In this document: piece by piece, positions 20,045 to 44,782 of the stretch
How the letters are laid out: every line of letters starts with the position of its first letter
Numbering within the stretch: the first letter of the stretch is position 1
From: a virus
Direction: 5' to 3' (one strand)
IMG/VR virus record: IMGVR_UViG_3300031997_002779
Coordinates: 1-45,447 of that record
DNA: 45,447 nt
Translations under genes and position numbers: made by a program
Notes under the pieces: generated by a model
What the model was told of the DNA's origin: nothing
What the model saw: the letters and a program-made list of their open reading frames with translations, nothing else
Databases searched by the model: none

Positions 20045-20057
20045 TTTTCCCTTCCCT

Positions 20058-21287: not shown

Positions 21288-21288
21288 A

Positions 21289-21834: not shown

Positions 21835-21838
21835 TCTG

Positions 21839-22288: not shown

Positions 22289-22292
22289 TGTT

Positions 22293-22493: not shown

Positions 22494-22512
22494 TATTTTT
22501 TTTCCTTTCGCT

Positions 22513-23445: not shown

Positions 23446-23446
23446 T

Positions 23447-25094: not shown

Positions 25095-25108
25095 TTTTAA
25101 GCCTCTGT

Positions 25109-29754: not shown

Positions 29755-29760
29755 TTAGGG
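29747..29760. promoter_or_regulatory. 14-bp perfect palindrome at the early/late boundary
   Basis: CCCTAATATTAGGG is a perfect palindrome that includes the stop codon of the 57-residue zinc-ribbon gene and lies just upstream of the late control region. It may be a binding site for the late activator, or a short hairpin helping to end early transcription (a T-rich stretch follows on the minus strand). Confidence 0.5.
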
Positions 29761-29928
29761 TTTTGCTTTTTTGGACCTTCTAACTTCGCGGCGGATCTTC
29801 GTTTCAAGCAGCCATTTTTTGCCGCACTTCTGGCAAACGGCGCGATGGTGGCGCAGGTTCGGAAGCGGAATTTCTAAGGTTTCATATATCCGGAGTTTTC
29901 CTCCGCAGGTTGGCCTGCCGCAGATCAT
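29755..29928 (-). CDS. Com-like small zinc-ribbon protein (57 residues)
   Basis: Too short for routine gene calls, this frame begins MICGRPTCGGKLRIYETLEI and ends with CQKCGKKWL and a basic tail. Two CxxxxC/CxxC pairs form a zinc ribbon like that of Mu Com, which binds RNA to control translation. The ATG overlaps the previous stop by four bases. The basic tail fits nucleic-acid binding. A Com role is only suggested; no mom gene is seen. Confidence 0.6.
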   Translation of the reverse strand: MICGRPTCGGKLRIYETLEIPLPNLRHHRAVCQKCGKKWLLETKIRREVRRSKKAKP

Positions 29929-30620: not shown

Positions 30621-30638
30621 GCGGCCAGCCGCCTTTCC

Positions 30639-31388: not shown

Positions 31389-31427
31389 TCTTCAGCCCCC
31401 TTGGGCGGCCAGCCGCCTTTTGCCTTT

Positions 31428-31625
31428 TCATAGATTCAGTCCTGCAGGGAATTGCTTGAGCGGATTTTCCAGGCCGAGATTATCCTTTTGGGAAACCGGA
31501 ATACCCCTCGCGTTCATAAATTCGGAGATATCTTCAGCCGATTCTTTTATTTCCGCGGATGTTTTTTCATTCCCGGAAAAACCGCCGATGATCACCCAAT
31601 GAATATGAATCGTATAAATAATCAT
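31428..31625 (-). CDS. Small early protein
   Basis: A 65-residue frame starts MIIYTIHIHWVIIGGFSGNE and overlaps the MazG-like gene stop by four bases. Its C-terminal half resembles a short helical segment (SAEIKESAEDISEFMNARGI). No function is recognised. Expression is probably coupled to the MazG-like gene. Confidence 0.5.
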   Translation of the reverse strand: MIIYTIHIHWVIIGGFSGNEKTSAEIKESAEDISEFMNARGIPVSQKDNLGLENPLKQFPAGLNL

Positions 31626-31906
31626 TTTTCAGATTCCTTCAATAATTCATCGAGTCTTACTATCTTATGCCTGATCCATATCCTGACTCTGTCTTTGCCG
31701 TAATATTCCGAGAGCTGATTGAGCATGATATAGGCATCGGCGATCTCCTGGCAGATATGATCGGTCGAAGCTTTACCGCGGAAATCCTTTACAAGTTCTT
31801 TCGTCAGTTCGGCCATTTCCTCAATAGCCATCATAACTTGCGCTTCCTTGCCCCAGGCATCCAGCGCGCGGAGATATATATTACGATATCTTGCTTTCTC
31901 GCTCAT
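31622..31906 (-). CDS. MazG-like nucleotide pyrophosphohydrolase
   Basis: The 94-residue product carries AIEEMAELTKELVKDFRGKA followed by HICQEIADAYIMLNQLSEYY. The E-E-x-x-E and E-x-x-D acidic pairs spaced about 27 residues apart form the metal site of all-alpha NTP pyrophosphatases (MazG/dUTPase superfamily). Phages use such enzymes to shape nucleotide pools or counter stress alarmones. It is coupled to both neighbours by ATGA overlaps. Confidence 0.75.
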   Translation of the reverse strand: MSEKARYRNIYLRALDAWGKEAQVMMAIEEMAELTKELVKDFRGKASTDHICQEIADAYIMLNQLSEYYGKDRVRIWIRHKIVRLDELLKESEK

Positions 31907-32079
31907 GAATTATCCTTTAGCCATTCGATCAGGTGATGGATTTTCAATCTCATTTTGTTTTTGAAATTTTTAATAGAGAAATTATAGGCTTTATAAGCCA
32001 GCCAATAATAAAAGGGAATCTTCCTTGAACCGTGGCATATATCGCAATAAACGCCAGATTCGCAGTCCGGGCATTTCAT
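31903..32079 (-). CDS. Tiny zinc-finger protein (58 residues)
   Basis: A frame below the usual size limit begins MKCPDCESGVYCDICHGSRK and continues into a basic amphipathic tail. The CxxC/CxxC spacing is like a rubredoxin-type knuckle or J-domain zinc finger. It overlaps both neighbours by four bases and has GAGGAGG upstream, so it is very likely translated. Its role is unknown. Confidence 0.6.
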   Translation of the reverse strand: MKCPDCESGVYCDICHGSRKIPFYYWLAYKAYNFSIKNFKNKMRLKIHHLIEWLKDNS

Positions 32080-32252
32080 AGAGGCTTCCTCCTCGATAAG
32101 AATTGATCAATCTTGTATTTCAGCCAGGCGAAGAGATTTATCTCTTCAGTACTTTCACAGAGATCACAAGTTACGCGAAATAACCGGCCATTAAACTTGC
32201 TAATTTCCAAATGAGACGGGCAGGGGCGTTTGGGGCATTTCTTCTTAAACAT
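32076..32252 (-). CDS. Tiny zinc-finger protein (58 residues)
   Basis: The frame begins MFKKKCPKRPCPSHLEISKF and contains VTCDLCEST, giving two cysteine pairs likely to bind zinc, followed by a basic C-terminus (FLSRRKPL). It is coupled by a four-base overlap to the next small zinc protein and has GGGG before the ATG. No family name can be given. Confidence 0.6.
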   Translation of the reverse strand: MFKKKCPKRPCPSHLEISKFNGRLFRVTCDLCESTEEINLFAWLKYKIDQFLSRRKPL

Positions 32253-32255
32253 AGA

Positions 32256-32609
32256 TCACCCCTTTCCGCGGATACTTGCTTGGTCAAGAGCGAACCGGTT
32301 TCTTGCCTCCTCGAATATCCCCGCGAGGAGCATCAGGTAATTCCGCGCGTCCTGAATCCGTCCGTCAATCGGCTCCGCCAGTTTCGATTCATCCATCCCG
32401 TTAGCAGTGAAAGTTATAATCGAATCCATGTGTTTCTGGAGGTATATCATACAGACGACAGCCGGATGGATTTTGAGCGCCACGCCGAGGCGTTTGAAGT
32501 TCGCGAGGACGTCATCCGAATTGCGGTATTCGGCGCCTTTAGTCCCCTGGAGTTCCATCTCCGCTTCATTGAACCGCTCAATCAGTTTCTTGAATTGTTC
32601 GTCTGTCAT
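32256..32609 (-). CDS. Phage early helical protein, possibly nucleotide-modification associated
   Basis: A 117-residue helical protein with MTDEQFKKLIERFNEAEMEL, a KGAEYRNSDDVLANFKRLGV core, and KLAEPIDGRIQDARNYLMLL. This 'Y-x-N-x-D ... F ... K-H ... G-R-x-x-D-x-x-N-Y' pattern resembles small phage proteins annotated with nucleotide-modification-associated domains. It overlaps the short frame upstream by ATGA. The identity is tentative. Confidence 0.5.
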   Translation of the reverse strand: MTDEQFKKLIERFNEAEMELQGTKGAEYRNSDDVLANFKRLGVALKIHPAVVCMIYLQKHMDSIITFTANGMDESKLAEPIDGRIQDARNYLMLLAGIFEEARNRFALDQASIRGKG

Positions 32610-32680
32610 TTCTTTACCTCCGGCATTATTGAAATTGGCTCAATTCCTGTTTTAAAAATTATTCCCATTGTCGCAATCAC
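32606..32680 (-). CDS. Micro-frame between two coupled genes (24 residues, GTG start)
   Basis: A GTG overlaps the stop of the 40-residue membrane peptide and the frame ends in an ATGA overlap with the next gene. The hydrophobic peptide would read (V/M)IATMGIIFKTGIEPISIMP. Its only support is the chained overlaps; it may just carry ribosomes across the gap. Confidence 0.3.
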   Translation of the reverse strand: MIATMGIIFKTGIEPISIMPEVKK

Positions 32681-32799
32681 AAAAACCGGCTGGCCGGCCA
32701 CCTCCCCGCCAGGGCGGTGAAGATCACGGCGGCGGCAAGGATCGCCAGCGCCAGCTTCCCTGCATTGACCGTCCAATGGGATTTAACGATGATGATCAT
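32677..32799 (-). CDS. Tiny membrane peptide (40 residues)
   Basis: The frame starts at an ATGA overlap with the preceding gene and gives MIIIVKSHWTVNAG followed by a membrane helix (KLALAILAAAVIFTALAG) and a basic end (RWPASRFL). One-helix peptides of this kind occur among early phage genes as membrane modulators. The coupling and clean helix support it. Confidence 0.5.
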   Translation of the reverse strand: MIIIVKSHWTVNAGKLALAILAAAVIFTALAGRWPASRFL

Positions 32800-32993
32800 T
32801 CCGGCACCTCTTGTGTATCTGCATGTTCCACGGGTTCAAATTCAAAATCATCAATATCCGGATTACCGGGCAGTAGATCATCATATTCAGTGGCCATTTT
32901 CATAAATATTTCATTTGCGGCATTAGCATTTTCAGCTTCGCAAACAACTTTTTTTCTTCCTATAATTATGATATTCGCTTCGAATTTTGCCAT
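32796..32993 (-). CDS. Small acidic early protein
   Basis: The ATG at 32993 has GGAGGG at proper distance; the ATG two codons earlier is too close to it. The 65-residue product begins MAKFEANIIIIGRKKVVCEA, resembling a small beta-alpha protein, and ends in an acidic tail (FEFEPVEHADTQEVPE). Acidic ends of this kind occur in DNA-mimic anti-restriction proteins, but that is not shown here. Confidence 0.5.
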   Translation of the reverse strand: MAKFEANIIIIGRKKVVCEAENANAANEIFMKMATEYDDLLPGNPDIDDFEFEPVEHADTQEVPE

Positions 32994-32995
32994 TT

Positions 32996-33643
32996 TCATC
33001 CCTCCTGTTTGTTTATATTCTTTATCTGCTGCCTCTGTTCCCAGTCCGGACGGTTTCTCGATCCTGCCGGCGGGGCGGGGTCGAGTCCGTCGCGTTCCGC
33101 CATCGCGTTCAGCCCCCGGCAGGCGGAGGTTGCGATTTTGCGTGTGGTTATGATTTCCACTCCGGTCCAGTTCGTTAGCCAACTGCGGAAATTATCCGGC
33201 TGTTTGAATATCAGAATCGCGTGCCGCAGAATGAAATCCTGCTGTTTTTTTGAGATAACGCGGTCTCCCCGGCTGGAGCCAAACTCAAGAATATTCTCCG
33301 GAAAGAACAAACGCCGCCAGTCCTCGAAACGTTCATCCGCGCTCGCATAGTTCTTTCGTTCCGGCGCGTTCGCAGCCGGGTTTGTGCCTTGCATCTTGTC
33401 CGCCGTTTTTTGCAATACGGCCAGAATCCTATTCATCTCGAAAAAAGAAATCTTCTTCGTGCTGGTGATCTTGAGATCGGCGTAGGCCTGGTCTTTCTGG
33501 TGCCGCACATCATAACCGGCCAGCTTCAAAAGCAGAAAGAACCGTTTCCGCTGCCATTCCGCGACCGGCTTCATGTATGCCTTCTTCTGCGCTGTGGGAG
33601 CGGGCCACTGCCCGCGATTCTTTTCTATCCTTGCGGTGGTCAT
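32996..33643 (-). CDS. GemA/gp16-like (DUF1018) early regulator
   Basis: The ATG at 33643 overlaps the previous stop by four bases. The 215-residue protein has KKAYMKPVAEWQRKRFFLLL, a DLKITSTKKISFFEMNRILA segment and later SKKQQDFILRHAILIF and WLTNWTGVEIITTRKIATSA. The layout (an aligned 'k...L.....Y.......S...L......L' unit, then a 'tt.ki' end) fits the Mu GemA family, which alters host DNA topology-sensitive expression. The order after a Gam-like gene also agrees with Mu. Confidence 0.5.
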   Translation of the reverse strand: MTTARIEKNRGQWPAPTAQKKAYMKPVAEWQRKRFFLLLKLAGYDVRHQKDQAYADLKITSTKKISFFEMNRILAVLQKTADKMQGTNPAANAPERKNYASADERFEDWRRLFFPENILEFGSSRGDRVISKKQQDFILRHAILIFKQPDNFRSWLTNWTGVEIITTRKIATSACRGLNAMAERDGLDPAPPAGSRNRPDWEQRQQIKNINKQEG

Positions 33644-33942
33644 AATCCCAGCGCCTTTCTCGCTTCCCTCGTTCCCGGAAAGGAGATCGCCCAGAACTGC
33701 CGCCGGTTCATCTCGCAGTATTCGCGGAATTTCCGCACCGTCGGCTGGCAAATGGAGACGACGGATTCCTCCGGCATCAGGTCAGATGCCGCGGCGTAGA
33801 TTTTCCATAGATGCGTTGTCAGGCCGCGAATCTGGCCTTGCGATAAGACCTTTGCCTTTGGCATATAGAAATCCATCAGGCACGACAGCCCGAAGAGCGC
33901 TTTCATGATCCTGTCCTGCTGCTCCGTCGTATAGTTAATCAC
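33640..33942 (-). CDS. Early protein of unknown function
   Basis: Translation begins at GTG 33942, five bases after GGAGGG. The 100-residue helical product contains RIMKALFGLSCLMDFYMPKA and MNRRQFWAISFPGTREARKA. No family is recognised. It overlaps both neighbours by 4-8 bases and is part of the early operon. Confidence 0.5.
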   Translation of the reverse strand: MINYTTEQQDRIMKALFGLSCLMDFYMPKAKVLSQGQIRGLTTHLWKIYAAASDLMPEESVVSICQPTVRKFREYCEMNRRQFWAISFPGTREARKALGL

Positions 33943-34363
33943 GATGTCCCTCCTGTTCTTTCAGCCATAGCGGAATCTGCGCGCTGAATTCGTCCTCGCG
34001 CATATTCTTGATCGCGCAATAACGTTTTGCCAAAGATAGAAACCGGTGGCGGATATTCTCCGCCGCGGCCGCCGCCTCTTCGTCATCTCCCGGTATCCAG
34101 ACCCCCGCGCTGTCCGTCCCGATCAGCTTCCCGTGAATCTCGATCAGGTCTTTTATCTTCGCCGAGACGACCCGGACGTCCAGCCCGAACGCGGAAGCTA
34201 ATTCTTTGCGGCTGGTCGCGGCACCGCGCCCGCGCGCGTGCGTTTTCAGATAATCCCACAGAGCATTCTCAATCGCGCCCCAGGATTGCAGCGCAAGGGT
34301 CGTCTGTTCCGGCTGATTCCGGTCCAGGCTGGTCTGTCCCGGGCTGGTCTGGTCGGCGAACAT
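33935..34363 (-). CDS. Winged-helix-like early protein
   Basis: A 142-residue protein with a Gln/Thr-rich start, then WDYLKTHARGRGAATSRKEL, ASAFGLDVRVVSAKIKDLIE and LIGTDSAGVWIPGDDEEA. The order helix, turn, recognition helix and beta wing fits a winged-helix DNA-binding domain (residues ~35-95). It could be a middle or late regulator (Mor/C role), which this phage otherwise seems to lack. That assignment is inference. Confidence 0.5.
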   Translation of the reverse strand: MFADQTSPGQTSLDRNQPEQTTLALQSWGAIENALWDYLKTHARGRGAATSRKELASAFGLDVRVVSAKIKDLIEIHGKLIGTDSAGVWIPGDDEEAAAAAENIRHRFLSLAKRYCAIKNMREDEFSAQIPLWLKEQEGHRD

Positions 34364-34365
34364 TG

Positions 34366-34779
34366 TTAGAATACCTCCACGCTGATCGAATCATCCTTCA
34401 CGATTTCAAGACCGAGAACTTTCAGCTCTTCCGGCTTGGCTTCCTCCTTGACTCTGTTTTTGATCAATTTATAGACCGGTTTATAGAAACGAGTCCACCG
34501 TTTATCCCTGGCGATGATCGCGGCCTTATCGAAGGAATGCTCGGCATGTTCCGCATCCGTAAGAACCGCAAGAGCGCCTTTGCCGGGATTGATTTTGATC
34601 TGTCCATTTGTGAATGCTCTCGAATCCGGCCATTTTTCATTTTTAGCTAAACCAATAAGCTCAGTCTCAAGATCGGCGTATTCCTTCTTCTCCATGTCAA
34701 TCTCAGCTTGAATCGGCTTGAAATGTTTCAACAGCTCAGCCATGCGTTTTAATTTTTCCTCGATGTCTTTTTCTTTCAT
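34366..34779 (-). CDS. Possible Gam-like DNA-end protection protein
   Basis: The ATG at 34779 follows AAAGGAG; a TTG three codons upstream is too close to it. The 137-residue protein has a long N-terminal coiled coil (EEKLKRMAELLKHFKPIQAE) and then FTNGQIKINPGKGALAVLTD, as in the coiled coil plus beta hairpin of Mu Gam. Gam binds DNA ends and blocks RecBCD-type nucleases. It lies downstream of the B ATPase, similar to Mu gene order. Similarity is by architecture only. Confidence 0.5.
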   Translation of the reverse strand: MKEKDIEEKLKRMAELLKHFKPIQAEIDMEKKEYADLETELIGLAKNEKWPDSRAFTNGQIKINPGKGALAVLTDAEHAEHSFDKAAIIARDKRWTRFYKPVYKLIKNRVKEEAKPEELKVLGLEIVKDDSISVEVF

Positions 34780-34784
34780 AAATT

Positions 34785-35072
34785 TCAATCTCCTTTCGTT
34801 TTTTTAATTGATAAATCGCTCATATATCCGATTATTTCATCAAATTTTTTGTTGATTTCTCGGATTTTTGTTTTATCTTCTTCGAAAATCGGCAGTAATG
34901 TCTCGCAATGAATCAGGGTCCAGTACACAATTTCGCAGTGCTCCCTGAAGATTTTTTCCGAATATGCGATGGAAAAAGATTCATCGTTCGCGCAACAAGG
35001 GCAGCTTCCCCTGATTGCCTGTTCATCCTTAAAGATTTTCTTGACGTCCTTACTCAGCGTTGCAGTACACAT
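34785..35072 (-). CDS. Small cysteine-containing early protein
   Basis: A 95-residue protein with AGGAGGG upstream. It contains SCPCCANDESFSIAYSEKIF, a CxxC pair, and further cysteines at HCEIVYWTLIHCE. The rest is helical and lysine rich. A zinc or redox site is possible. No family is recognised. Confidence 0.5.
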   Translation of the reverse strand: MCTATLSKDVKKIFKDEQAIRGSCPCCANDESFSIAYSEKIFREHCEIVYWTLIHCETLLPIFEEDKTKIREINKKFDEIIGYMSDLSIKKTKGD

Positions 35073-35084
35073 CTTTCCCTCCTG

Positions 35085-35285
35085 TTATTTCCTGACCCGC
35101 CACTCCTTGAGTGTCGGGTGGAATTCGATTTTGTTTTTCTTTAGAACGGTCGAGACCGTTCCCGGCAGGACTCCCGTCCTCCGCGCTATCGTCTGGATTC
35201 CATATCTATGCCCGACCGCCAGGTCGATTATTTTCCTTTGTCTTGCTTCCTCTTCAGCTAAAAGATCATGTATTCGTTCAATCAT
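35085..35285 (-). CDS. Small helix-turn-helix protein
   Basis: The 66-residue product starts in an ATGA overlap with the B ATPase gene. It contains HRYGIQTIARRTGVLPGTVS, a clear helix-turn-helix, and a short basic end (PTLKEWRVRK). It is probably a DNA-binding regulator of early or middle transcription. Its size is like Ner/Cro-type proteins, but the sequence resembles resolvase-type HTH domains. Confidence 0.6.
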   Translation of the reverse strand: MIERIHDLLAEEEARQRKIIDLAVGHRYGIQTIARRTGVLPGTVSTVLKKNKIEFHPTLKEWRVRK

Positions 35286-36718
35286 GCCAGCACCTCGTGA
35301 AGCCCGACGACTGAAGCGTTCGGGTTATAGGTATATTTCCAGAGCAGGGCGGCTGTCGCGATGCGGTTTATCCTCGCCGGCGTGCGTCCGCCGTAGCGGT
35401 CCGCCATATCGAGGATGGCGCTCAAAGCTTCGTCGGTGAATATATCGTTCGGTTTCCGGCCGACGAGCGCCAGCCTGCTTGCGATGAAATTCTCCGCGTC
35501 GGTCTTTTCGAGCGGCTTCAGGCAATCCTGCGTCGCCCGTAAACCCACCTCCTGGAGTGTCGGCAGGAATTGGATTTTATCTTCCAGCCCCACCGGCTGG
35601 CCGGCGACGATCACCGTAAGCAGCCGCTTGTCCGTCTCCCGGTCTTCCAGTTCGAAAAAGGCTTTGAGGGATTGCAGCGTCCCCGGATTCATCTGGTTGC
35701 CTTCGTCGATCCAGAGGATTACGGCCTGTTTTTTGCTCGAGAGGGCTTTTTTCAGGATCATGGCTTTTTCAAGTCCGTCCTGGCGCAGGTTCCCGACGCC
35801 TAATTCCAGCAGAAGCAGGTTCAGGAAATTGTTCGCTGCGGCCGATTGCGCCATTATGTTCTCCGGTTCGACGATCAGGTATGCCCTCTTGTCCGCGGAA
35901 ATCCGGGGCAGTTCTTCGAGTTCTTCCAGGCTGAAAACCCTGTCTTTGTCCTCGAGCGGTATCCGCCAAAGAAGATTCCTGGCTTTCTTCTGAAGCAAGG
36001 TTTTTCCCGCCCCGGTCTCGCCGGACAGGATGAAGAACTTGCGTCCCTGCGCCGCCTGCAGCAGCCGGTCGAGTATTTCCCTGTGCTTTTCCCCGAAAAA
36101 CATCTCTTCGGTTTTCAAAGATTCGTCCACCGCAAACGGATTGCGGTTAAATTTATAGTGCCTGAGTGCTTCCTGTGTAAGCATTCTGTTAACCTCTTTT
36201 TCTCTTGTTTTTTGTCTGAATATTTTGAATTCATCCGCGGCCATCGGTTTCCAGAGATCGTCCAGAACCGGCGCGCTGTAATATTGGCCCAGCAGCAGGA
36301 TAATCACCTGCTGGAATTTTTCGTATGACATGGACTGGCGGTTTTCCGGCAGCCATCCGCGCAGGTATTGAGCGACCGCCGGCTGCGAGATCCCGCATTC
36401 AGCGGAGAGCCGCCCCTGTGATATCTTCGCGTCATAGCAGAGCCATTTCGCGAGCGGCCAGCGCGGTTTGCCGTCGGTTTCCTTCTCCTGAAAATTCCGC
36501 TCCGGCGGCTCCGCAACCGGAACGCCGAGATCGGTGAGTTTCTTCAGAATGAATTCCTGGAAATGCAGGATTGATATTTTTTTCGGATACCGGCCGTAAT
36601 TAAGTATCTGGCTGAAAGTCCCCTGGTTCAGGTTCAGTTCCCGGGCGATCCCCGCCTGCGAATATCCGGAAATCTTGCGCCAGTCGTCTAAGGTTTTCTT
36701 CAGAGGGATTGCGGCCAT
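35282..36718 (-). CDS. Transposition ATPase B (MuB/TniB-like AAA+) with two N-terminal HTH domains
   Basis: The ATG at 36718 follows GGGAGGGGAG; the longer open frame upstream overlaps another gene. The 478-residue protein has two helix-turn-helix units, residues ~16-43 (GYSQAGIARELNLNQGTFSQ) and ~97-121 (KISQGRLSAECGISQPAVAQ). Then comes an ExeA/TniB-type AAA+ module with Walker A GETGAGKT (233-240), Walker B VILWIDEGNQ (~333-342) and a C-terminal PARINRIATAALL helix. MuB-type ATPases bind DNA as filaments, pick the target and activate transposase A. MuB has one HTH; two is unusual. It follows transposase A with one small gene between. Confidence 0.85.
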   Translation of the reverse strand: MAAIPLKKTLDDWRKISGYSQAGIARELNLNQGTFSQILNYGRYPKKISILHFQEFILKKLTDLGVPVAEPPERNFQEKETDGKPRWPLAKWLCYDAKISQGRLSAECGISQPAVAQYLRGWLPENRQSMSYEKFQQVIILLLGQYYSAPVLDDLWKPMAADEFKIFRQKTREKEVNRMLTQEALRHYKFNRNPFAVDESLKTEEMFFGEKHREILDRLLQAAQGRKFFILSGETGAGKTLLQKKARNLLWRIPLEDKDRVFSLEELEELPRISADKRAYLIVEPENIMAQSAAANNFLNLLLLELGVGNLRQDGLEKAMILKKALSSKKQAVILWIDEGNQMNPGTLQSLKAFFELEDRETDKRLLTVIVAGQPVGLEDKIQFLPTLQEVGLRATQDCLKPLEKTDAENFIASRLALVGRKPNDIFTDEALSAILDMADRYGGRTPARINRIATAALLWKYTYNPNASVVGLHEVLA

Positions 36719-36984
36719 CTCCCCTCCCGTCTCTGTATGCGGCGCAGGCGCATCTCCCGTTTGGCTTCGGCGCATTGTTCCAATTGAGTTTTCTTGAGTT
36801 TTCGGCGCATCCGTTCCCGTTCGTTCAGTTCCTGCGTATCCAGTGCCCCTTCGCCCTGCTCGCCGCATTCCGAGCCGTCACCCAAGCCCCAGCGTTCGAG
36901 CATCGGCTTGAATTTCGCGAATGCCATGCGCCGTATCCGCCTGTGCCTGTATTTCTTGCCTAACTTCTCGATTATCTTGCTCAT
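36700..36984 (-). CDS. Small basic protein between transposase A and B
   Basis: A 94-residue, Arg/Lys-rich protein (KKYRHRRIRRMAFAKFKPML near the start, REMRLRRIQRREGRWPQSL at the end). AGGAGG lies before the ATG and it overlaps the B gene by 19 bp. A basic protein between the two transposition genes could bind DNA or RNA, but no known counterpart is evident in Mu. Confidence 0.5.
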   Translation of the reverse strand: MSKIIEKLGKKYRHRRIRRMAFAKFKPMLERWGLGDGSECGEQGEGALDTQELNERERMRRKLKKTQLEQCAEAKREMRLRRIQRREGRWPQSL

Positions 36985-37032
36985 CCGGAATCCTCCTTTC
37001 TTAAAGGTGAGCGGCTTTCCAGCCGTCCGGAT

Positions 37033-38700
37033 TTATGCCTGTTTTTCCCCCGCCCTTCGGAGGAAAGACATCTTCTTCGCTTCGAGGTCTTCGCGCTTTA
37101 TCCCGCGCTTGACCATCGCGTCTATCTCGACTATAAAAATCTTGAAATTCTTTGGCCCGATCTCGCGGCGTAAATATTCCCGCGCCGCCGTCTCGGAAAC
37201 GTATGTCGTCTCGTTCGGTAAGGTTATTTCCTGCTTCGGCAGCCTCGCCGAGATCGCGGTTATCTTCTGTATCTCGCTTGGCATATCGGGGAAAGCCCTC
37301 ATGCCGGTATGGTCTATCGCGTTCAATGTCTTCAAATTCCTGTCCGCCGCCGCGTCCTTCGCCCGCTTCCATTCGCCGAACGGGACCGCGTCCGAGGCGA
37401 AGCCGAATTCATCCCGCTCGATTCTCGCCGCTTCGTATTTCTCGTTCTGCCAGAGGACAATAAGGACGTCGTCCTGGTGGTAGGGCGACGGGTAACAATC
37501 AACCGTTTCGTTTTTCAACGATGCCTCGCCGACCCGGTATTCCCGCCCGTCGTAAGAGATCATTCCGAGGCCGTTGACCTTGCGATCCTCCGGCTTCCTG
37601 TGCGCGAGCGCGCGGATCAAATCCATCTTGTTCTCCGGCAGGACGCGGAATTTGCCTTCGGGGATCAGGGCGATTCCGTCCGTCCACATCTCGAACCGCG
37701 TCCGCCCGGAAGTCCGGTGGACCTTCACCGCGTTGAATTCCGCGATCAGGATATCCTTCCGGCGGTTCAGGTCTTCGAGGGATTTAGCCGGTTCGATTGC
37801 AAGCCTGCTCTCGAAATAGTTCTGCCATAGCCGGTGTCCCACCTCGACGGCCCCCTTGCCGCGTGGGTTGCCCGGCATGTGTGTCGCGTAATTTACCTCG
37901 AGGGCTTCCAGAAATCCCTTTGCGGTTGCATTGTTCAGCCCGGAGCCTTTGTCGGAATATATATTTTGCGGAACCCCCATGAACGGGAACTGGTCCGCTG
38001 ATGATTTCTTGAAAAAGCAGCGCAGGAGAAAATCAACCCAGTCGTCCGCGTTTTCCCCTGCCGCGTAATAATAATGTATGAATAAATTCCTGGTGAAATG
38101 ATCCACCGCCGCGTATCGGAACAGTGCCCGCTTCTTGCCTGCATAATTTTTCAAATCCTTGCCGTAATAGCGGTTCATCGGCTCGAAGGTGAGATCCCCC
38201 TTCTTGCCGAACCGGTATTGCAAACAGACCGAGACGTCGGCCATCAGCCATTCCAGCGGATAGCCGCTCCTGCGTTCCAGCGGCATGGATGAAACCTTGC
38301 CTGTCGGATTCGCTTTGCCGAGCGTCCGGCTGTCCATCTTGTTCTCCCGCAAAAGCCGTGAGAGGTAGGCCGATGAAATGTTCGCTTCCTGCCCGTTCAG
38401 CCCGGCGATCTCCAGCGCCACTTCCGCCGGCATCGTAACCGTCCCCGTCCTCCGGCGGGAGGATTCCTTGATCGAGGCGATATTCTCTATCTGCTCGCGG
38501 TTGAGCATGCGCGCGCCCGCTCCGGCGCGCTTCTTCTTCTTCGCGAGAACGCCCTGCGTCTTCAGGATTCGGTAGGCCGTGGCCGCGGATATCTTCTTGT
38601 CGTTTGCCCATTTCTCGGCGAAAGACCTTCTCCCGCCATGTTCTTTCTGCGCATAATCCCTGGCGAAATTTAACGCTGTTTCTTCAGATACCCGCGGCAT
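37033..38700 (-). CDS. DDE transposase A (Mu A-like)
   Basis: The 555-residue enzyme has an N-terminal DNA-binding region with several helical motifs (residues ~25-125, e.g. DKKISAATAYRILKTQGVLA). A DDE/rve core follows with D155 (LMADVS), D250 (IYSDKGSG) and E286 (GKGAVEVGHR), the last two 35 residues apart. A Mu-transposase beta-barrel lies near 385-430 (YDGREYRVGEASLKNETVDC), and the C-terminus is basic and helical, as where MuA contacts MuB. It would bind the paired TGAGACAA motifs at both ends and carry out replicative transposition with the ATPase at 35282-36718. Confidence 0.92.
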   Translation of the reverse strand: MPRVSEETALNFARDYAQKEHGGRRSFAEKWANDKKISAATAYRILKTQGVLAKKKKRAGAGARMLNREQIENIASIKESSRRRTGTVTMPAEVALEIAGLNGQEANISSAYLSRLLRENKMDSRTLGKANPTGKVSSMPLERRSGYPLEWLMADVSVCLQYRFGKKGDLTFEPMNRYYGKDLKNYAGKKRALFRYAAVDHFTRNLFIHYYYAAGENADDWVDFLLRCFFKKSSADQFPFMGVPQNIYSDKGSGLNNATAKGFLEALEVNYATHMPGNPRGKGAVEVGHRLWQNYFESRLAIEPAKSLEDLNRRKDILIAEFNAVKVHRTSGRTRFEMWTDGIALIPEGKFRVLPENKMDLIRALAHRKPEDRKVNGLGMISYDGREYRVGEASLKNETVDCYPSPYHQDDVLIVLWQNEKYEAARIERDEFGFASDAVPFGEWKRAKDAAADRNLKTLNAIDHTGMRAFPDMPSEIQKITAISARLPKQEITLPNETTYVSETAAREYLRREIGPKNFKIFIVEIDAMVKRGIKREDLEAKKMSFLRRAGEKQA

Positions 38701-38710
38701 TTCGGCTTCC

Positions 38711-39649
38711 TCAATTTTCCTTGTTCGTAAACGGTTTGTCCGGCGCAGGCTCGATATCGTGAGCCTCCGGAACCAGGTCCGGATTCCAGTTCCCTTGTAT
38801 CGGCGTGCAACGCAGGCGCTCGACGCATGGGATTCCTTCCCCGACCTCGCTCAGAGCGTGTTTGTAAATGTCTTCCCTGAATTCCGCGGCGACGTGCAGG
38901 ATCAGATCGGTGAAACCGACCACCTGCATCCGGCTGGCTTCCGTGAAGAGTTCGGGGTGTTCGTAAATCTGGTCCGCGATGTTGCGCACGTAGAGCAGCT
39001 TTGCCTTCACCTGCAGAAACAGGTCGTGGCATTTCTTCTCCACCTCTTTTTCAAGGTCATCGGTATAAGGATTAAAGATATCCGCGAGCTGCTTCTCAAG
39101 CTTCGCGATCTTCTCGTCTTTCTCGGTGTTTTGTTTCTCGACGTTCTCCGTGCGCTTCTTCCATTTCTTGATCTCGGCCTGGAATTCCCTTACCGATAAA
39201 ATCCTTAACTGATCTTTTGGAATGCCTATCAAATAACCTTCATCTTCAAGTTTTTCTATTTCTTCGTCCGGTATGCTTAGGGCGGCGATCATCTTTGTGG
39301 TCCCCAAATGCGTCATCAATGACGCATTTGAAAACTTCAGGTAAATGGCCATATATCGCTGGGCCTGGCGAGGAAGAATATTTCTCCTTTCCAGCATTTT
39401 ATAGAAATTGCCATGCTCTTCGTTAAGTTTTGCAAGGTAAATCCTTTTCCCTATCTCCATCCCGCTCATCACATGCTGTGTCTGGAAAAAATTTATTTCT
39501 TCTTCGTTTCGAAGGGGATCGTAAGATTCGCCGTTGAGTATTTTCGTTGTCTCGTGTTCGATGCTGATTTTATTTTTAAGTGTCTCTATAGCCTCAGGCT
39601 GGTTGGCAAGGCTAAGGTTTTCAATAACTTGCTCCGTTCCTTTTTTCAT
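38711..39649 (-). CDS. DUF3102-like early protein
   Basis: The 312-residue product follows GGAGGAAAAC. Residues ~60-105 (GMEIGKRIYLAKLNEEHGNF and RRNILPRQAQRYMAIYLKF) show the DUF3102 pattern 'GxRLxxAKxxLxHGxWxxW...sxRTAxRYM', a HTH-like element found in plasmid and phage proteins. A long coiled coil (~155-200) and a C-terminal helical domain follow. It lies just 10 bp before transposase A, so it is produced with it. A DNA-binding or transposition accessory role is an inference. Confidence 0.65.
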   Translation of the reverse strand: MKKGTEQVIENLSLANQPEAIETLKNKISIEHETTKILNGESYDPLRNEEEINFFQTQHVMSGMEIGKRIYLAKLNEEHGNFYKMLERRNILPRQAQRYMAIYLKFSNASLMTHLGTTKMIAALSIPDEEIEKLEDEGYLIGIPKDQLRILSVREFQAEIKKWKKRTENVEKQNTEKDEKIAKLEKQLADIFNPYTDDLEKEVEKKCHDLFLQVKAKLLYVRNIADQIYEHPELFTEASRMQVVGFTDLILHVAAEFREDIYKHALSEVGEGIPCVERLRCTPIQGNWNPDLVPEAHDIEPAPDKPFTNKEN

Positions 39650-39658
39650 GTTTTCCTC

Positions 39659-39925
39659 CTAATTTCCGCCGAGAGATTCTTTGCCGGCATGGAAATCTTC
39701 CATTTCCGGAGTTCCTTCGGTCATCTTTAGCCAATCCTCGGTGTCTTCTATTGTTTCCATGATTTCAGGGTCTTTATCTACCTCGTAAATCTTCTTCAGT
39801 TTATTCAGATTTTCTTGCACAAATTTTCTGCTCAAAGCGCATTTTGTAATCAGGGGTTTGATCTCTTCAATAAGTTTTTCCCTGTCGTAATTCCCCGTTC
39901 CCTTATTATCTGTTTTTTCAACCAT
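39659..39925 (-). CDS. Small charged early protein
   Basis: The ATG at 39925 has GGAGGG seven bases upstream, better than an ATG at 39964. The 88-residue helical protein contains DREKLIEEIKPLITKCALSR and acidic NTEDTEDWLKMTEGTPEMED-type sequence. No family is recognised. Confidence 0.5.
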   Translation of the reverse strand: MVEKTDNKGTGNYDREKLIEEIKPLITKCALSRKFVQENLNKLKKIYEVDKDPEIMETIEDTEDWLKMTEGTPEMEDFHAGKESLGGN

Positions 39926-39953
39926 TATTATTCCCTCCTGTTTTTCTGTAAAA

Positions 39954-40250
39954 TCATCGTTCATTCTCCACGCAGAGCATCTCTAATCCGCAAAGAGAAA
40001 TCTGGTTCAAGTACCATGCGTTCTCCCTTCCTTCGAGAACTTTGTTCAGATGTTTCCCGCAGGAAAACATGTGCTCCGGTTTCAATTCCGGCGTATCCCC
40101 GGAGGTATATCTTTCCGTCCGGTAGATAATATATTTAACTTTCTCCTTGCAAAATGGATTGCCGCATTGTTTGATATCTGATATTTTGAATGCCGCTGCG
40201 CCTTTGATAATCGACGTTTTTCTCCCGTTGGCTATTTTTTCATATTTCAT
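39954..40250 (-). CDS. Small cysteine-rich early protein
   Basis: The ATG at 40250 overlaps the previous gene stop and has AAGGAGG. In 98 residues it has CGNPFCKEKVKYIIYRTERY and MFSCGKHLNKVLEGRENAWY, i.e. a Cx4C pair and a Cx2H pair with the spacing of a zinc-binding treble-clef. It resembles the other small zinc proteins in this operon in layout. Function unknown. Confidence 0.55.
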   Translation of the reverse strand: MKYEKIANGRKTSIIKGAAAFKISDIKQCGNPFCKEKVKYIIYRTERYTSGDTPELKPEHMFSCGKHLNKVLEGRENAWYLNQISLCGLEMLCVENER

Positions 40251-40654
40251 CTCTTCACCTCCTTCAAGATTCCCTCGCGCGTCAGGTACCGCCATGCCTT
40301 GGTCACATCGAAAGGGTTGTCAGGAAAAATGGCTGCGTAGAGTTCCGCAGTCTCGAAGAACCGCTGCTTGCGTATCGCGTTATCCGCGAGGAATATCCCG
40401 ATCATCGCCTCGAGTGCCGGCGAATAGGAATACGAAAAGGCGTCCAACCGTTTGGATATCTTATTGATCTTGTATCCGGCGATCCCGCCGGTCATCTTCT
40501 GGTCCAATAGCTTCGCCTCGCAGACGTCCAACCGGCGTTGCAGATTCCGGCAGCCCCGCTCGGCAAAATAAAGGGCGGCAAACGGAGAGCTGCAAAGAGC
40601 GGTCATGGTGAGAAAGAACCCGGCCCTCCGTATCAGCCGCCTTAATTTTGTCAT
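40247..40654 (-). CDS. Early membrane-anchored protein
   Basis: The ATG at 40654 overlaps the previous stop (TAATG). The 135-residue protein starts with a basic segment and a membrane helix (AGFFLTMTALCSSPFAALYF). A helical domain follows (LFAISYSY-type, then RYLTREGILKEVKR). It may anchor an early phage function at the inner membrane. No family is recognised. Confidence 0.5.
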   Translation of the reverse strand: MTKLRRLIRRAGFFLTMTALCSSPFAALYFAERGCRNLQRRLDVCEAKLLDQKMTGGIAGYKINKISKRLDAFSYSYSPALEAMIGIFLADNAIRKQRFFETAELYAAIFPDNPFDVTKAWRYLTREGILKEVKR

Positions 40655-41118
40655 TACGCCGTCCCCTTCTGCGCGCAGGTCACGCGCGAGAGGGCTGCCA
40701 CGCATTCATGAAGTTTCTTTTCCGCTTCGTCCCGCGCCTTCCGTTTCCGGCTGAATTCATCTTCCAGAAAAGCCATCATCTTCATCCGGCAGTTCGCGCA
40801 GATCACCTGACCGATTCCATTAGCATCGGGCACTAAATAGAATACCGAATCAGCCGCGATCGGCAGGCCGCATCCCGGCTCTTCGCAGACCGGTTCTTTT
40901 ATTGTTGCTGGTGCGCACATTTCTTTCCCTCCTGTTTTTTTAGCTTCGAATTTATGCTCCAAGGCGCGCATTTGCTTCATCCAGCAATCCGCGCATATCC
41001 CGCGCCCGTAACCCTTGGTCTTGTCTTGGACGAAATATAAATCGTCACGTTTTTTTATTTGATTATTGCAATCTAGATCCGAGCAGACGATTAATTCGTT
41101 CTCTTTTATTTCAATCAT
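40654..41118 (-). CDS. Early protein with two zinc-finger modules
   Basis: A 154-residue protein with an internal duplication: CSDLDCNNQI...YFVQDK...ICADCWMKQM (residues ~12-50) and CEEPGCGLPI...FYLVPDA...ICANCRMKMM (~77-115). Each module has a Cx4C and a CxxC pair about 30 residues apart, as in treble-clef zinc folds. A charged C-terminal helix follows. The next gene (41115-41351) encodes a single copy of the same module. Confidence 0.6.
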   Translation of the reverse strand: MIEIKENELIVCSDLDCNNQIKKRDDLYFVQDKTKGYGRGICADCWMKQMRALEHKFEAKKTGGKEMCAPATIKEPVCEEPGCGLPIAADSVFYLVPDANGIGQVICANCRMKMMAFLEDEFSRKRKARDEAEKKLHECVAALSRVTCAQKGTA

Positions 41119-41351
41119 CTGCCATCCTGTTTTTGGTCATATTTTAAAAGGCACTCGTCGCATAACCGCACGAGCCTGTCGTCAACGAATCTGTATCCCC
41201 CGCCGTCGGCTGGCACGTATCTGTCGCAATACCACGCGGGGCACCTGTTGGCCTTGCTGTCTGCCGCCGGGTGATAATTCTTGTCTCCCGGCTTCGGTCC
41301 CGGCTTCCGGGGATTCTGCAGCTCCGTGAGGGTTATCCTGATTTCGCTCAT
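41115..41351 (-). CDS. Early single zinc-module protein
   Basis: The ATG at 41351 overlaps the CII-like stop by four bases. The 78-residue product has a Pro/Lys-rich start (NPRKPGPKPGDKNYH) and CPAWYCDRYV...RLVRLCDECLLKY. The Cx4C/CxxC spacing copies that of the duplicated modules in the next gene. It may bind DNA, RNA or protein; the function is unknown. Confidence 0.55.
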   Translation of the reverse strand: MSEIRITLTELQNPRKPGPKPGDKNYHPAADSKANRCPAWYCDRYVPADGGGYRFVDDRLVRLCDECLLKYDQKQDGR

Positions 41352-41821
41352 TCCCCGCCTCCGTCGTCGAACAGGTCCGTCTGTCCGTAGGCGTATTTCT
41401 CTACGTTCGCCTTCTGCGCGGCTAATGCCTTGATCGCGTCTTTTATGAGCTTGATTATCGGCTGGACGTCTATCGCCTGTTTCTCGGCGTCGTTCAGATG
41501 GTCGTAGAAATAATAAAGCCGCGTTTGCAGTTCGCCGAGCAGCTTCTGGAGCTCCGCGACGCTGACCAATCCCTTCTTGAGTCCGCCGGTCGGTATCTTG
41601 TAAGCGGCGAAACCGCAAAGGCTGTTGATATATTCCAGAACGCGGTAATCTTTTGTTATGTTCATCAATGGGATCAGCCATTCGAGAGGAAAATTGACCC
41701 CGCTGTCAGGCGTCGTGGATTTATAAAGGTGGCTCTCCCCGGCGCCCATCTTGTCGGCAATGGCGCTGACTTTCAGCGGCGAACGCCGAAGGGTCTCATA
41801 AAGTTCTTGTTTTAATGGCAT
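41348..41821 (-). CDS. CII/CP76-like phage regulatory protein
   Basis: The ATG at 41821 follows GGGGGATT; the frame is open further upstream into the leader but without a good start. The 157-residue product begins MPLKQELYETLRRSPLKVSA and shows IADKMGAGESHLYKSTTPDS and LEWLIPLMNITKDYRVLEYI, the pattern of phage regulatory protein CII (CP76). Such proteins bind DNA and steer the lytic/lysogenic choice. It is the first gene of the early operon. Confidence 0.65.
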   Translation of the reverse strand: MPLKQELYETLRRSPLKVSAIADKMGAGESHLYKSTTPDSGVNFPLEWLIPLMNITKDYRVLEYINSLCGFAAYKIPTGGLKKGLVSVAELQKLLGELQTRLYYFYDHLNDAEKQAIDVQPIIKLIKDAIKALAAQKANVEKYAYGQTDLFDDGGGE

Positions 41822-42230
41822 ATTCCAAATCCCCCGCGAAAATGGAAGCGGCTTCTCGCGCCGCATTCCAGACTTCATTGATTACGGAAGTGGTTTTTGA
41901 GAGAAAAAGCCTTATAATATAATTGACGCGCCCCTTTGGGGTAGTGAAACCGGGGCGCGCCGTTCGAGCAGGGTTGCTTTGGGGCGGTACTATTCCCCGT
42001 TGCGGTCCTGCGGTGGTGACTGTTTTAATAAAAAGGGAGGCGTTCAGGGGGGAATTGAACAGCCTCCCCGAGGCGGACAAACTCAGAGAGAGCCTGTCCA
42101 GTTTTTTGTTTTTCTCTATAAGGAGGGTCGTATGGAAAAGCGTCTCCGTCGCCTTTATCGCTTGATTGTTTTTCCGAAAATCGGTGTCCATTGGAATTCC
42201 CCCACGTTAAAATTTGTTTCCCTATTCCAT
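41822..42230 (-). promoter_or_regulatory. Early operon leader with attenuator-like structures
   Basis: The 400-base stretch between the early promoter and the first early gene holds no convincing gene. It holds a strong terminator (42030-42068) and a second hairpin (CGCGCCCC 41927-41934 with GGGGCGCG 41952-41959) that competes with CCCC-TTT-GGGG. Early transcription would meet both before the CII-like gene. Open frames here (for example 131 codons from 42191) read through the terminator and look accidental. Confidence 0.5.
42030..42068 (-). terminator. Rho-independent terminator in the early leader
   Basis: On the minus strand GGGAGGC-T-GTTCA (42068-42056) pairs with TGAAC-GCCTCCC (42046-42035) around a nine-base loop and is followed by TTTTT. 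The 12-bp stem with one bulged base is strong. It lies about 155 bases after the predicted early start site and 215 before the CII-like gene, so full early expression needs read-through. Confidence 0.75.
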
Positions 42231-42259
42231 AATATATATCTCGATTGAGATAAATGCAA
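42231..42259 (-). promoter_or_regulatory. Early promoter with operator in the spacer
   Basis: TTGCAT (42254-42259), a 17-bp spacer and TATATT (42231-42236) form a minus-strand promoter. The spacer is nearly filled by the palindrome TATCTC-N4-GAGATA (42237-42252). A protein bound there would block RNA polymerase. It points toward the transposition operon and lies 54 bp from the regulator gene start, so it is the likely target of that regulator. Confidence 0.65.
42237..42252. promoter_or_regulatory. Operator palindrome, primary
   Basis: TATCTCGATTGAGATA has perfect six-base arms around GATT. It lies inside the early promoter spacer. A related sequence at 42282-42294 suggests that the regulator binds two sites. 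Confidence 0.65.
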
Positions 42260-42281
42260 GGAATAATCACAAAAAAGTATT

Positions 42282-42294
42282 TTATTTGAGATAA
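42282..42294. promoter_or_regulatory. Operator-like site, secondary
   Basis: TTATTTGAGATAA matches the arms of the primary operator with one mismatch. It lies 12 bp before the regulator start codon and may give autoregulation. Confidence 0.45.
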
Positions 42295-42305
42295 AAGGTG
42301 ATAAA

Positions 42306-43094
42306 ATGAAGCCTGATCCTTCCATCGGCAAAAAAATTCGTAAAATCCGCCTGAGTAAAGGTAAAAATCAGAAGGAATTTGCTGATTCCTTGAATATCTC
42401 GCAAGGCTATTATTCAAATGTCGAAAACGGCAAAATGGACCCTTCCAGTGCATTACTGAAGGGATTGGCTGATATTTATGAGATTGATCTGAATTGGTTG
42501 CTTGCAAAAGAAGAAAAAAAATCAAAGTCATCCATAAAACAAAGTAATATATCCGGGGGAAACGTCGTCGCCTTTTCCGGCCCACTTAATCAATCTAATG
42601 TCCAAATAGGTGATAGGTATGAGAAAAAAATAAACCGGATAGTACATTCATTGCCCGAAGGATCAATAACACCAGCGCAAGCAGTAGAGCTAAAGGATTA
42701 TGTGAATAAAATAGTAGCTGCCGGCGAACTTGCACACTATTATCCACGACCTCATTGGAAGGGAATCTGGAATGCTTTTTATAAAAAATTTAGGGTTCCA
42801 TCATACAGAGAATTGCCGGAAATATTTTATCCGGAAGCCGTTAGATACTTCCAGAAGAAGCTTGGTATAATTAACAGTAAGGGATTGCATAGTAGAAACA
42901 AAACAAGCTTCATTAAGAAATATATCCAAAATATTCATGTGATTTACAAAAACGAATTGAAATGGACCGAAGAAGAATATCGTGCTTTCTTGAAAAAATA
43001 TTATAATGTGGATAGCTCATTGGACTTGAAAGATGAACAGATCATCGCCCTATATCATAAATTAAACCGCATAAAAACAAAGAAGGAGGAATGA
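42306..43094 (+). CDS. Lysogeny regulator: HTH_XRE with ORF6C-like and GemA-like segments
   Basis: This 262-residue protein starts at the ATG at 42306 after AAGGTG. Residues 8-65 form an XRE helix-turn-helix (RKIRLSKGKNQKEFADSLNI). A Ser/Asn/Gly linker (~72-103) follows. Residues ~118-187 (TPAQAVELKDYVNKIVAAGE, then NAFYKKFRVPSYRELPEIFY) look like the ORF6C domain of phage antirepressors. Residues ~205-255 (YIQNIHVIYKNELKWTEEEY, then DSSLDLKDEQIIALYHKL) resemble a Mu GemA/DUF1018 unit. There is no LexA-type peptidase, so induction by RecA-driven self-cleavage is not expected. It faces away from the early operon across two operator sites and is the likely repressor. Confidence 0.75.
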   Translation: MKPDPSIGKKIRKIRLSKGKNQKEFADSLNISQGYYSNVENGKMDPSSALLKGLADIYEIDLNWLLAKEEKKSKSSIKQSNISGGNVVAFSGPLNQSNVQIGDRYEKKINRIVHSLPEGSITPAQAVELKDYVNKIVAAGELAHYYPRPHWKGIWNAFYKKFRVPSYRELPEIFYPEAVRYFQKKLGIINSKGLHSRNKTSFIKKYIQNIHVIYKNELKWTEEEYRAFLKKYYNVDSSLDLKDEQIIALYHKLNRIKTKKEE

Positions 43095-43690
43095 TGGGAT
43101 TTATGGGGTGGCTGATTTTTATAATCGTTTTTGTGATCCTTTTTATTCTGGCTGGTTATGTAATGCGAAAACAAAAAAGAAGAGAAATTAACGCCTTGGA
43201 TCATTTTGATATTGGACATTATATATCGGGACTGGGTTCTGGTGGTTCGGGGCTAACTGAGTGTATGGTTACAGAACGCGATCTTCTCTTTTTTACACAA
43301 CAGGCGGTCGAATTCGGGCGGATTCCGCGCGATCGGATTAATGCAATTTATGTCGAAGACCATTCACAAATTCAGAGTCGTATTACAGCCACCCGTATGC
43401 TTACACTTGGAATCTTTTCGCTCGCTGCGAAAAAGAAAACCACCGCCGAAGAATATTTCATCCTAATAGACTGGCAAAATGAAAAGGGGATGCAAGAAAA
43501 TGCACTCTTTAAATATTCTGGAATGGCGAGTAGAAGTCTTGCAAATATTGCCGCAGAAAAACTGAAAAAATACATATTGACAAAACGCGAGATAATAAAA
43601 GAGGGAGAGAGAAAATGCCCGTTCTGCGCAGAGATCATTAAATCAGAGGCAAAGAAATGCAAACATTGCAAGTCCGCGCTTATTTGTTAA
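43091..43690 (+). CDS. Membrane protein with PH-like domain and C-terminal zinc ribbon
   Basis: The gene overlaps the regulator stop; the second ATG (43094) is better spaced from AGGAGG. The ~199-residue product has one N-terminal membrane helix (WLIFIIVFVILFILAGYV), a middle domain (ECMVTERDLLFFTQQAVEFG, then RINAIYVEDHSQIQ) that resembles small bacterial PH-like folds, and a zinc ribbon (CPFCAEIIKSEAKKCKHC). It is expressed with the regulator, so it is made in the lysogen. A role in superinfection exclusion or defence is plausible from this position but not shown. The lower GC and AT-rich codons than the structural genes suggest later acquisition. Confidence 0.65.
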   Translation: MMGFMGWLIFIIVFVILFILAGYVMRKQKRREINALDHFDIGHYISGLGSGGSGLTECMVTERDLLFFTQQAVEFGRIPRDRINAIYVEDHSQIQSRITATRMLTLGIFSLAAKKKTTAEEYFILIDWQNEKGMQENALFKYSGMASRSLANIAAEKLKKYILTKREIIKEGERKCPFCAEIIKSEAKKCKHCKSALIC

Positions 43691-43712
43691 CCAAAATGGA
43701 GGGAGGGTAATT

Positions 43713-44201
43713 ATGGGTAAGTATGTAGATCAAAATTTAAGCACTGGCGAGAAGGTCATCTATGAAGCAAGATTGCATTGGATTATGTATGCCAATGCTT
43801 TTCTTGTGGTTTTTGTTGGGCTCCTTCTTCTCTATATCGGAATCATCATGGAGGGGGAAGAAGCATCTGATAGTTTAAAAATCGCGGGATATTTCGTTAT
43901 CGCTTGCGGGGTGGTTAGTGAGTTATATATGTATCTTTTTCTTAAAACCGCGGAATTCGCCGTCACCACAAAGCGTATAATTTCCAAGCGCGGCATCATC
44001 TCGACGAAAACAATAGAATTACTATTATCCAAGGCCGAGGCGATCTCTGTGGATCAGAATGTTTTAGGAAAAATCTTCGCTTTTGGTTCTATTCGGATAA
44101 CCGGCTCCGGCGGCACTAATAATGTAATCCCGTTTATCGCCGACCCCTTCAAGTTCCGCAAAATCGCCCAGGAGGAAATCGAAAAAGCGCAGAAAAAGTA
44201 A
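43713..44201 (+). CDS. Two-helix membrane protein with bPH_2 domain
   Basis: The 162-residue protein follows GGAGGGAGGG. It begins STGEKVIYEARLHWIMYANA, has two membrane helices (~29-47 and ~60-78), and a beta domain with FAVTTKRIISKRGIISTKTI and GSIRITGSGGTNN. This is the bPH_2 (YdbS/YdbT-like) bacterial PH architecture. It is the outermost gene before the prophage end, in one operon with the regulator and the zinc-ribbon protein, so it is a lysogenic-conversion candidate acting at the envelope. Host copies of such genes are linked to membrane stress and antimicrobial resistance. Confidence 0.75.
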   Translation: MGKYVDQNLSTGEKVIYEARLHWIMYANAFLVVFVGLLLLYIGIIMEGEEASDSLKIAGYFVIACGVVSELYMYLFLKTAEFAVTTKRIISKRGIISTKTIELLLSKAEAISVDQNVLGKIFAFGSIRITGSGGTNNVIPFIADPFKFRKIAQEEIEKAQKK

Positions 44202-44229
44202 TTTGTGTTTCTGTTAAATGATCATAGAA

Positions 44230-44317
44230 AATCCGGCGGGAAAATCGGGGCGGTTTTTCTTGTGTAAATTATCCTTTCTCGCGAAGTGGAATAATCCGGG
44301 GAATCGGGGCGGTTTTT
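44230..44317. repeat. Two AATCGGGGCGGTTTTT direct repeats near the prophage end
   Basis: AATCGGGGCGGTTTTT occurs at 44243-44258 and 44302-44317, 59 bp apart, each preceded by AATCCGG-type sequence. An inverted relative (AAAACCCGCCC) lies at 44411-44421. The region between the last gene and the prophage end has no gene. These may be extra transposase or host-factor sites. Confidence 0.5.
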
Positions 44318-44442
44318 GGGTGTTTTCTGTCAATAAAAATACTTATTTTATTGGAAATCCTGCTGAATATGGCGTGATTTTTCGCTGTTTTGCGCGTAAA
44401 ATATCCCTCAAAACCCGCCCTTTTTGCTTTTTTCTCATGCCT

Positions 44443-44474
44443 ATTTGTCTCAACTTTGCCCTCTATTTGTCTCA
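44443..44474 (-). repeat. Prophage left end: tandem transposase-binding motifs
   Basis: On the minus strand TGAGACAAAT occurs at 44474-44465 (outermost) and 44452-44443, 22 bp apart, with GGCAAA between. This mirrors the right end at 7177-7208. The terminal dinucleotide is TG read inward (CA on the plus strand). It is the regulatory end of the phage, equivalent to attL of Mu. Confidence 0.8.
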
Positions 44475-44782
44475 TCTCCGATCAGTATGATATAAATTGG
44501 AGCCAGATAGGATTCTTCTGTATTTGGCAAAAAATATTTAAATATCAAATATGGACTAGCCATCAATACAACAAGGGAAAGAGTAAAGATAAGAAGAGAC
44601 TTGACTTTAACTTTATAAGGATCATAGCAATTTTTGCATAAAGGGACTTTTGTTGTCCAACTAACATTTTGATGATAATCCCCTCTCCCACCCATTATAT
44701 AAAGTTTTTTGTCAGGTGATGGTTTTAAACATTTACAGCAATAGTCCGGAAAAACTATTTTAAATTTTTCTGTATTATACAT
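44450..44782 (-). pseudogene. 5' part of a zinc-ribbon membrane-protein gene, truncated by the prophage
   Basis: From the ATG at 44782 (AGGAGAG upstream) the frame encodes PDYCCKCLKPSPDKKLYIMG and LCKNCYDPYKVKVK, a CxxC...CxxC zinc ribbon, then a membrane helix (SLLIFTLSLVVLMASPYLIF) and the start of a second (YLAPIYIILIG). At 44474 the frame enters the prophage end, reading eight foreign residues (DETNRGQS) to a stop. The intact relative would continue like the fragment at 7009-7176. The gene sits 53 bp below the right 152-bp repeat, whose promoter would drive it. Confidence 0.65.

Follow-up and report, generated by a model that had tools for sequence, protein, structure and literature searches.

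A Sie309-type protein and a bPH_2 protein encoded with the repressor of a Mu-like prophage: a candidate superinfection-exclusion module

Results

A Mu-like prophage and its surroundings

The window, by which we mean the whole stretch of DNA analysed, is the 45,447-nt IMG/VR record IMGVR_UViG_3300031997_002779. It holds a prophage with TG...CA ends. The inverted ends read TGATTGTAAATGAGACAA, starting at 7167, and, on the minus strand, TGATCGGAGATGAGACAA, starting at 44484; each is followed 22 bp further along by a second TTGAGACAAAT site. The target duplication that flanks the element is 6 bp long (Table 1); that of Mu is 5 bp. The prophage borders are firm, because the flanks joined without the prophage restore a single open frame of about 150 codons. 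The gene split in this way (44450-44782 with 7009-7166, both on the minus strand) is small, and its product has predicted membrane helices and an N-terminus that resembles a zinc finger.

The MuA-type transposase, the CII-like gene and the divergent XRE regulator together identify a Mu-like phage, and the features of that transposable class (a MuA transposase, TG/CA ends, a short target duplication and a repressor near one end) are all present. By tblastn the transposase matches those of Pseudomonas, Stenotrophomonas and cyanobacterial Mu-like phages. When MuA, the repressor and P0003 were each used as a single-sequence query against IMG/VR, no relatives of any of the three turned up.

Table 1. 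Coordinates in the window of the prophage, its target duplication and the genes discussed
Feature	Position	Strand	Basis
Mu-like prophage, 37,318 bp	7167..44484	.	End repeats, target duplication, restored flanking ORF
Target-site duplication GTATGA, low-coordinate side	7161..7166	.	
Target-site duplication GTATGA, high-coordinate side	44485..44490	.	
MuA-type transposase	37033..38700	-	rve domain; tblastn matches
CII-like (Phage_CP76) regulator, divergent from P0001	41348..41878	-	PF06892, E 2.6e-10
P0001, XRE/HTH_3 regulator, probable repressor, first gene of the operon	42306..43094	+	PF01381, E 8.5e-14
P0002, 199 aa, one TM helix, Sie309-type core, C-terminal zinc ribbon	43091..43690	+	
P0003, 162 aa, two-helix bPH_2 'membrane-flanked domain' protein	43713..44201	+	PF03703, phrog_3707, AF2 model

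Outside both prophage ends lie direct repeats, 6708-6873 with 44826-44991 (166 nt, 95%) and 2225-2374 with 45268-45417 (150 nt, 91%), in the order second-first-prophage-first-second, which is not that of a simple insertion duplication. A major head protein gene outside the prophage (787-1662, plus strand) belongs to another phage remnant, and an IS481-type transposase (2874-4019, plus strand) has its nearest match in Desulfolutivibrio (60%), a weak hint at the host. Two adjoining, related membrane proteins encoded on the minus strand outside the prophage (4596-5471 and 5610-6665) carry HEAT-like repeats (LTDQ..L..IAKND..VR.AA) that are also visible as DNA repeats.

The operon of regulator, P0002 and P0003

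The stop codon of P0001 and the start codon of P0002 share a 4-bp ATGA overlap, a gap of 22 bp separates P0002 from P0003, both of these genes have a GGAGG-type ribosome site ahead of the start, and no terminator-like site was found on the plus strand between the genes of the operon. The pair lies inside the prophage, between the regulator and the phage end, from which it is 283 bp distant. These data bear out the initial annotation, which had placed the two genes in one operon with the regulator and outward of it at the prophage tip, and given the prophage borders and the Mu-like genes the pair is phage-borne. Its description as more AT-rich than the structural genes also holds, with GC contents of 40% for P0002 and 43% for P0003 (37% for the regulator) against 55% for the structural genes. 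Residues 220-260 at the C-terminus of P0001 (42963-43088) match Mu GemA, though below the threshold (PF06252, E 7e-4).

P0003 is a two-helix bPH_2 protein

As first proposed from the sequence, P0003 is a genuine two-helix bPH_2 protein, on which the sequence matches and the predicted structure agree. It matches bPH_2 (PF03703) with E 4e-11 and 43.4 bits (cut-off 22) and phrog_3707 over its full length (E 1.7e-26), and its AF2 model (pLDDT 82) consists of two helices and a PH sandwich, with VIA Z scores of 10-12 to PH domains including the bacterial PHb structures 3hsa and 3dcx. Relatives in phages and on plasmids share an MG.Y....L start. Such relatives are found in lytic Ackermannviridae and on 2-kb plasmids, and in Acinetobacter prophages they are morons placed immediately ahead of the tape measure gene; phrog_3707 matches are also chromosomal, in B. 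subtilis and others. In four Acinetobacter loci (L008, L017, L034 and L035) a membrane zinc-ribbon protein is encoded ahead of the bPH_2 gene, either next to it or one gene further off. On a 2.2-kb Enterobacter plasmid and related small plasmids the P0003 relative is one of only three annotated genes.

P0002 has a core homologous to that of Sie309

P0002 begins with a hydrophobic helix followed by RKQKRR and ends in a ribbon, CPFC...CKHC (residues 174-197), that matches ribbon-bearing PHROGs at E 5e-10, with Pfam ribbon models scoring below cut-off. The positively charged stretch that follows the helix points to a cytoplasmic location of the middle domain and the ribbon. The middle domain, approximately residues 55-170, gave no match to a Pfam PH family, and hhalign comparisons to bPH_3 and bPH_2 were not significant, although the control comparison of bPH_3 with bPH_2 worked; the assignment of P0002 as a PH protein by sequence was dropped on these two grounds. 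The AF2 model is poor (pLDDT 57), and its best structural matches are mostly PH, PTB and F3 folds with Z up to 5.5; being too poor to use, it leaves a PH fold unproven. Hence of the one-helix, PH-like, zinc-ribbon protein originally described, the helix and the ribbon stand and the PH-like part is unconfirmed. Sequence searches of the PDB gave no convincing match for P0002, P0003 or the family profile, and PADLOC named neither protein.

Searching 50,697 phage records by tblastn with P0002 gave one match outside the ribbon, ORF XHP1_00030 of Actinomyces phage xhp1 (E 4e-6), and the protein of that ORF in turn matches Orf2 of Lactococcus phage bIL309 (E 5e-6), whose gene is sie309. We then scored Sie309 against a profile from which it had been left out, built from P0002, one IMG/VR relative and xhp1-type and Tepidibacter sequences, and obtained 63.5 bits. 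Many of the relatives had been retrieved by a 9-residue motif, a source of circularity that was countered by masking, by motif-keeping shuffles and by the unbiased tblastn searches; with the motif masked Sie309 still scores 40.4 bits, and the maximum of 1000 motif-keeping shuffles is 26. The shared core is visible in a 16-sequence family alignment, and P0002 carries the Sie309-type motif (R/K)xTxTR...GxFAxAxKKK. By these sequence comparisons the middle domain of P0002 is homologous to the Sie309 core, the homology being limited to about 95 residues, while the anchor and the tail differ.

The Sie309-type core recurs in lysogeny modules

We counted 14 lineages in the family, grouped by inspection. 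The final IMG/VR scan added no further lineage. In nine of them (the window, L010, xhp1, Tepidibacter L013, L062, L088, the Sie309 group L068-L076, L077 and L066) the gene comes after one for a repressor or an ImmA-like protein. On its other side lies a recombinase gene, except in the window, where P0003 and then the phage end take that place; the ImmA assignment in L077 was made by eye, as Pfam gave nothing. In xhp1 the gene sits between an HTH regulator and the integrase. Two hits in genomes lie inside a repressor/recombinase-type module (L062) and between integrase and terminase genes (L061). A few other members (L080-L083, L087 and that of C. difficile phage CD1801) are adjacent to tape measure genes, which suggests a possible target of Sie309-type proteins. 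The viral collection favours phages, but that bias does not force a position inside the phage. Among 346 Actinomycetota genomes and 348 genomes of the Tepidibacter phylum there were three matches and one match, respectively, seeds included, so that by the narrow profile used the gene is not common chromosomally there. The domain has no Pfam model, is absent from PADLOC and falls in unlabelled PHROGs, with phrog 26783 matching 15 of 17 members.

Several members stand out by their annotation or architecture. In Clostridioides phage CD1801 (L105, 2267-3019) the gene immediately after that for the tape measure protein is labelled 'partial tail tape measure protein'; its product is a Sie309-type protein, and the label is probably a misannotation. 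In L066 and L067 (3555-5216), between an ImmA-like gene and the integrase, a single long protein contains an RNase_T/DnaQ-type exonuclease as well as hydrophobic helices and the Sie309-type domain; by analogy with SNIPE, this may be a nuclease that sits in the membrane and acts during injection. The L077 protein (4668-5366) combines a DUF4428-like zinc finger, below the Pfam cut-off, with the Sie309-type domain and SHOCT.

Discussion

How prophage membrane proteins stop the entry of phage DNA is still poorly understood. With moderate confidence we read P0002 and P0003 as a candidate superinfection-exclusion module, which would be co-transcribed with the repressor, expressed in the lysogen and jointly block DNA entry. 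The N-terminal helix of P0002 would anchor it in the inner membrane with core and zinc ribbon in the cytoplasm, P0003 would be a second inner-membrane protein with its PH domain at the same face, and together they would occupy the membrane site through which an incoming genome passes, perhaps blocking entry through contact with the tape measure protein.

This proposal draws on the homology of the P0002 core to Sie309 and its recurrence in lysogeny modules, on the protection given by a PH-domain protein and its partner from the same slot in TP901-1, and on the place that P0003 relatives hold before the tape measure gene, like that of HK97 gp15. Among the family members found only Sie309 has been characterised; as cited in PMC6127208, sie309, like sie312, confers resistance to 936 phages through blocked DNA injection. 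In TP901-1 the slot between cI and int holds orf2, which encodes a PH-domain protein, and orf3, whose product is metalloprotease-like. The two genes, identical to SieF7/2AB, were cloned as a pair and then reduced the plating and plaque size of skunaviruses and gave full resistance to P087 and WRP3 (PMC7693887). Orf2 of bIL285 (sie285), a bPH_3 and SHOCT protein in the repressor-integrase slot, is near-identical to the TP901-1 PH protein, and PHb proteins in lysogenic modules were noted earlier by Xu et al. 2010 (PMC2817789). A membrane or PH-type exclusion gene beside the repressor is therefore of a known kind. A block to superinfection, raised as a possibility in the initial annotation, thus gains support by homology. 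The outcome named beforehand as refuting, a scatter of housekeeping genes without a prophage link, does not hold for the P0002 family; it applies in part to the broad bPH_2 family, whose members are also chromosomal. Lytic phages and 2-kb plasmids with P0003 relatives count against our reading, as a lysogen-limited role does not predict them.

The two-component character of the system is a separate matter. The initial annotation inferred it and suggested looking for the pair in other prophages; no fetched locus other than the window holds both families. The exact pair was found nowhere else, and joint action is a hypothesis for which the operon and the recurring theme of ribbon protein plus bPH_2 argue. 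P0002 might instead be the exclusion protein by itself, with P0003 an unrelated moron that follows by chance, and we regard this as somewhat unlikely. Such an arrangement would fit the lack of a bPH_2 neighbour at the other Sie309-type loci and of a Sie309-type neighbour at the other P0003-type loci, as well as the finding that 2-kb plasmids and lytic phages carry P0003 relatives on their own; the tight operon with its 22-bp gap speaks against it, as do the four Acinetobacter loci, where the bPH_2 gene comes after one for a ribbon-bearing membrane protein, which suggests that the combination is selected.

It is unlikely that the pair has no anti-phage role and serves instead to shield the envelope from stress or membrane-active compounds, as Gram-positive bPH_2 operons do. 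YdbS and YdbT, which we take to be bPH_2 proteins, provide a precedent. They are encoded by the sigma-W operon ydbST (PMC3498285), bPH_2 proteins occur in leaderless bacteriocin clusters (PMC7332713, PMC11580447), and the chromosomal phrog_3707 matches point the same way. However, P0002 is not a bPH_2 protein, its characterised relative Sie309 is reported to be an exclusion protein, and lactococcal prophages with exclusion genes raised, rather than lowered, sensitivity to nisin and lysozyme. That P0002 is a lysogeny regulator, for example one that tethers the repressor to the membrane or relays a membrane signal, appears very improbable: adjacency to a repressor or ImmA gene in many lineages and the 4-bp overlap in the window would suit such a role, but the same domain also occurs next to tape measure genes at sites that have no regulator in the vicinity, and sie309 is reported to act when expressed alone in another strain (PMC6127208).

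Returning to the exclusion module, our data show a Sie309-type core in lysogeny modules of Actinomycetota, Clostridia and Lactococcus phages and of one Mu-like phage, with interchangeable attachments (a TM helix, SHOCT, the zinc ribbon, a DUF4428-like finger or the exonuclease fusion). Sie309 has so far been discussed as a lactococcal protein, and its core is now a searchable family with testable candidates. Tentatively, a cross-phylum exclusion family may here have become a two-protein inner-membrane module, in which a ribbon-bearing Sie309-type protein and its bPH_2 partner would together keep genomes from entering, possibly through recognition of the tape measure protein.

Comparison with known systems

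The earlier statement that no described defence system has this pair holds for the exact pair, but close relatives, Sie309 and TP901-1 orf2/orf3, have been described. The phrog_3707 proteins of Ackermannviridae, Acinetobacter prophages and small plasmids are full-length relatives of P0003 (31-38% identity), but have no repressor alongside in the loci seen. HK97 gp15, cited for its exclusion function in PMC10883804, resembles the P0003 relatives as a small predicted inner-membrane protein in a moron slot before the tape measure gene; its gene is much shorter (189 bp). SNIPE acts at genome injection, and some of its homologues have N-terminal PH or DUF4428 domains (PMC13190303). A weak DUF4428-like finger is also present in the Sie309-type relative L077, whereas no nuclease domain was found in P0002 or P0003.

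SieF7/2AB is, like the window pair, a two-gene exclusion system in the repressor-integrase slot with one PH-domain protein. Its PH domain, however, is a bPH_3 with SHOCT and its partner is metalloprotease-like, and P0001-P0003 gave no matches to bPH_3/SHOCT or Peptidase_M78, which sets the pair apart from that system. Sie309 itself shares with P0002 the homologous core and the place of its gene within the lysogeny module, immediately after that of the repressor. It differs in having a C-terminal SHOCT (present in 6 of 17 family members; P0002 has its zinc ribbon there instead), in lacking a zinc ribbon and a bPH_2 partner, and in being followed by a tyrosine integrase gene, whereas in the window the phage end follows P0003. 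What is new here is thus that a transposable phage carries a Sie309-type core, and that this core is anchored in the membrane, bears a zinc ribbon in place of SHOCT and is coupled to a bPH_2 protein.
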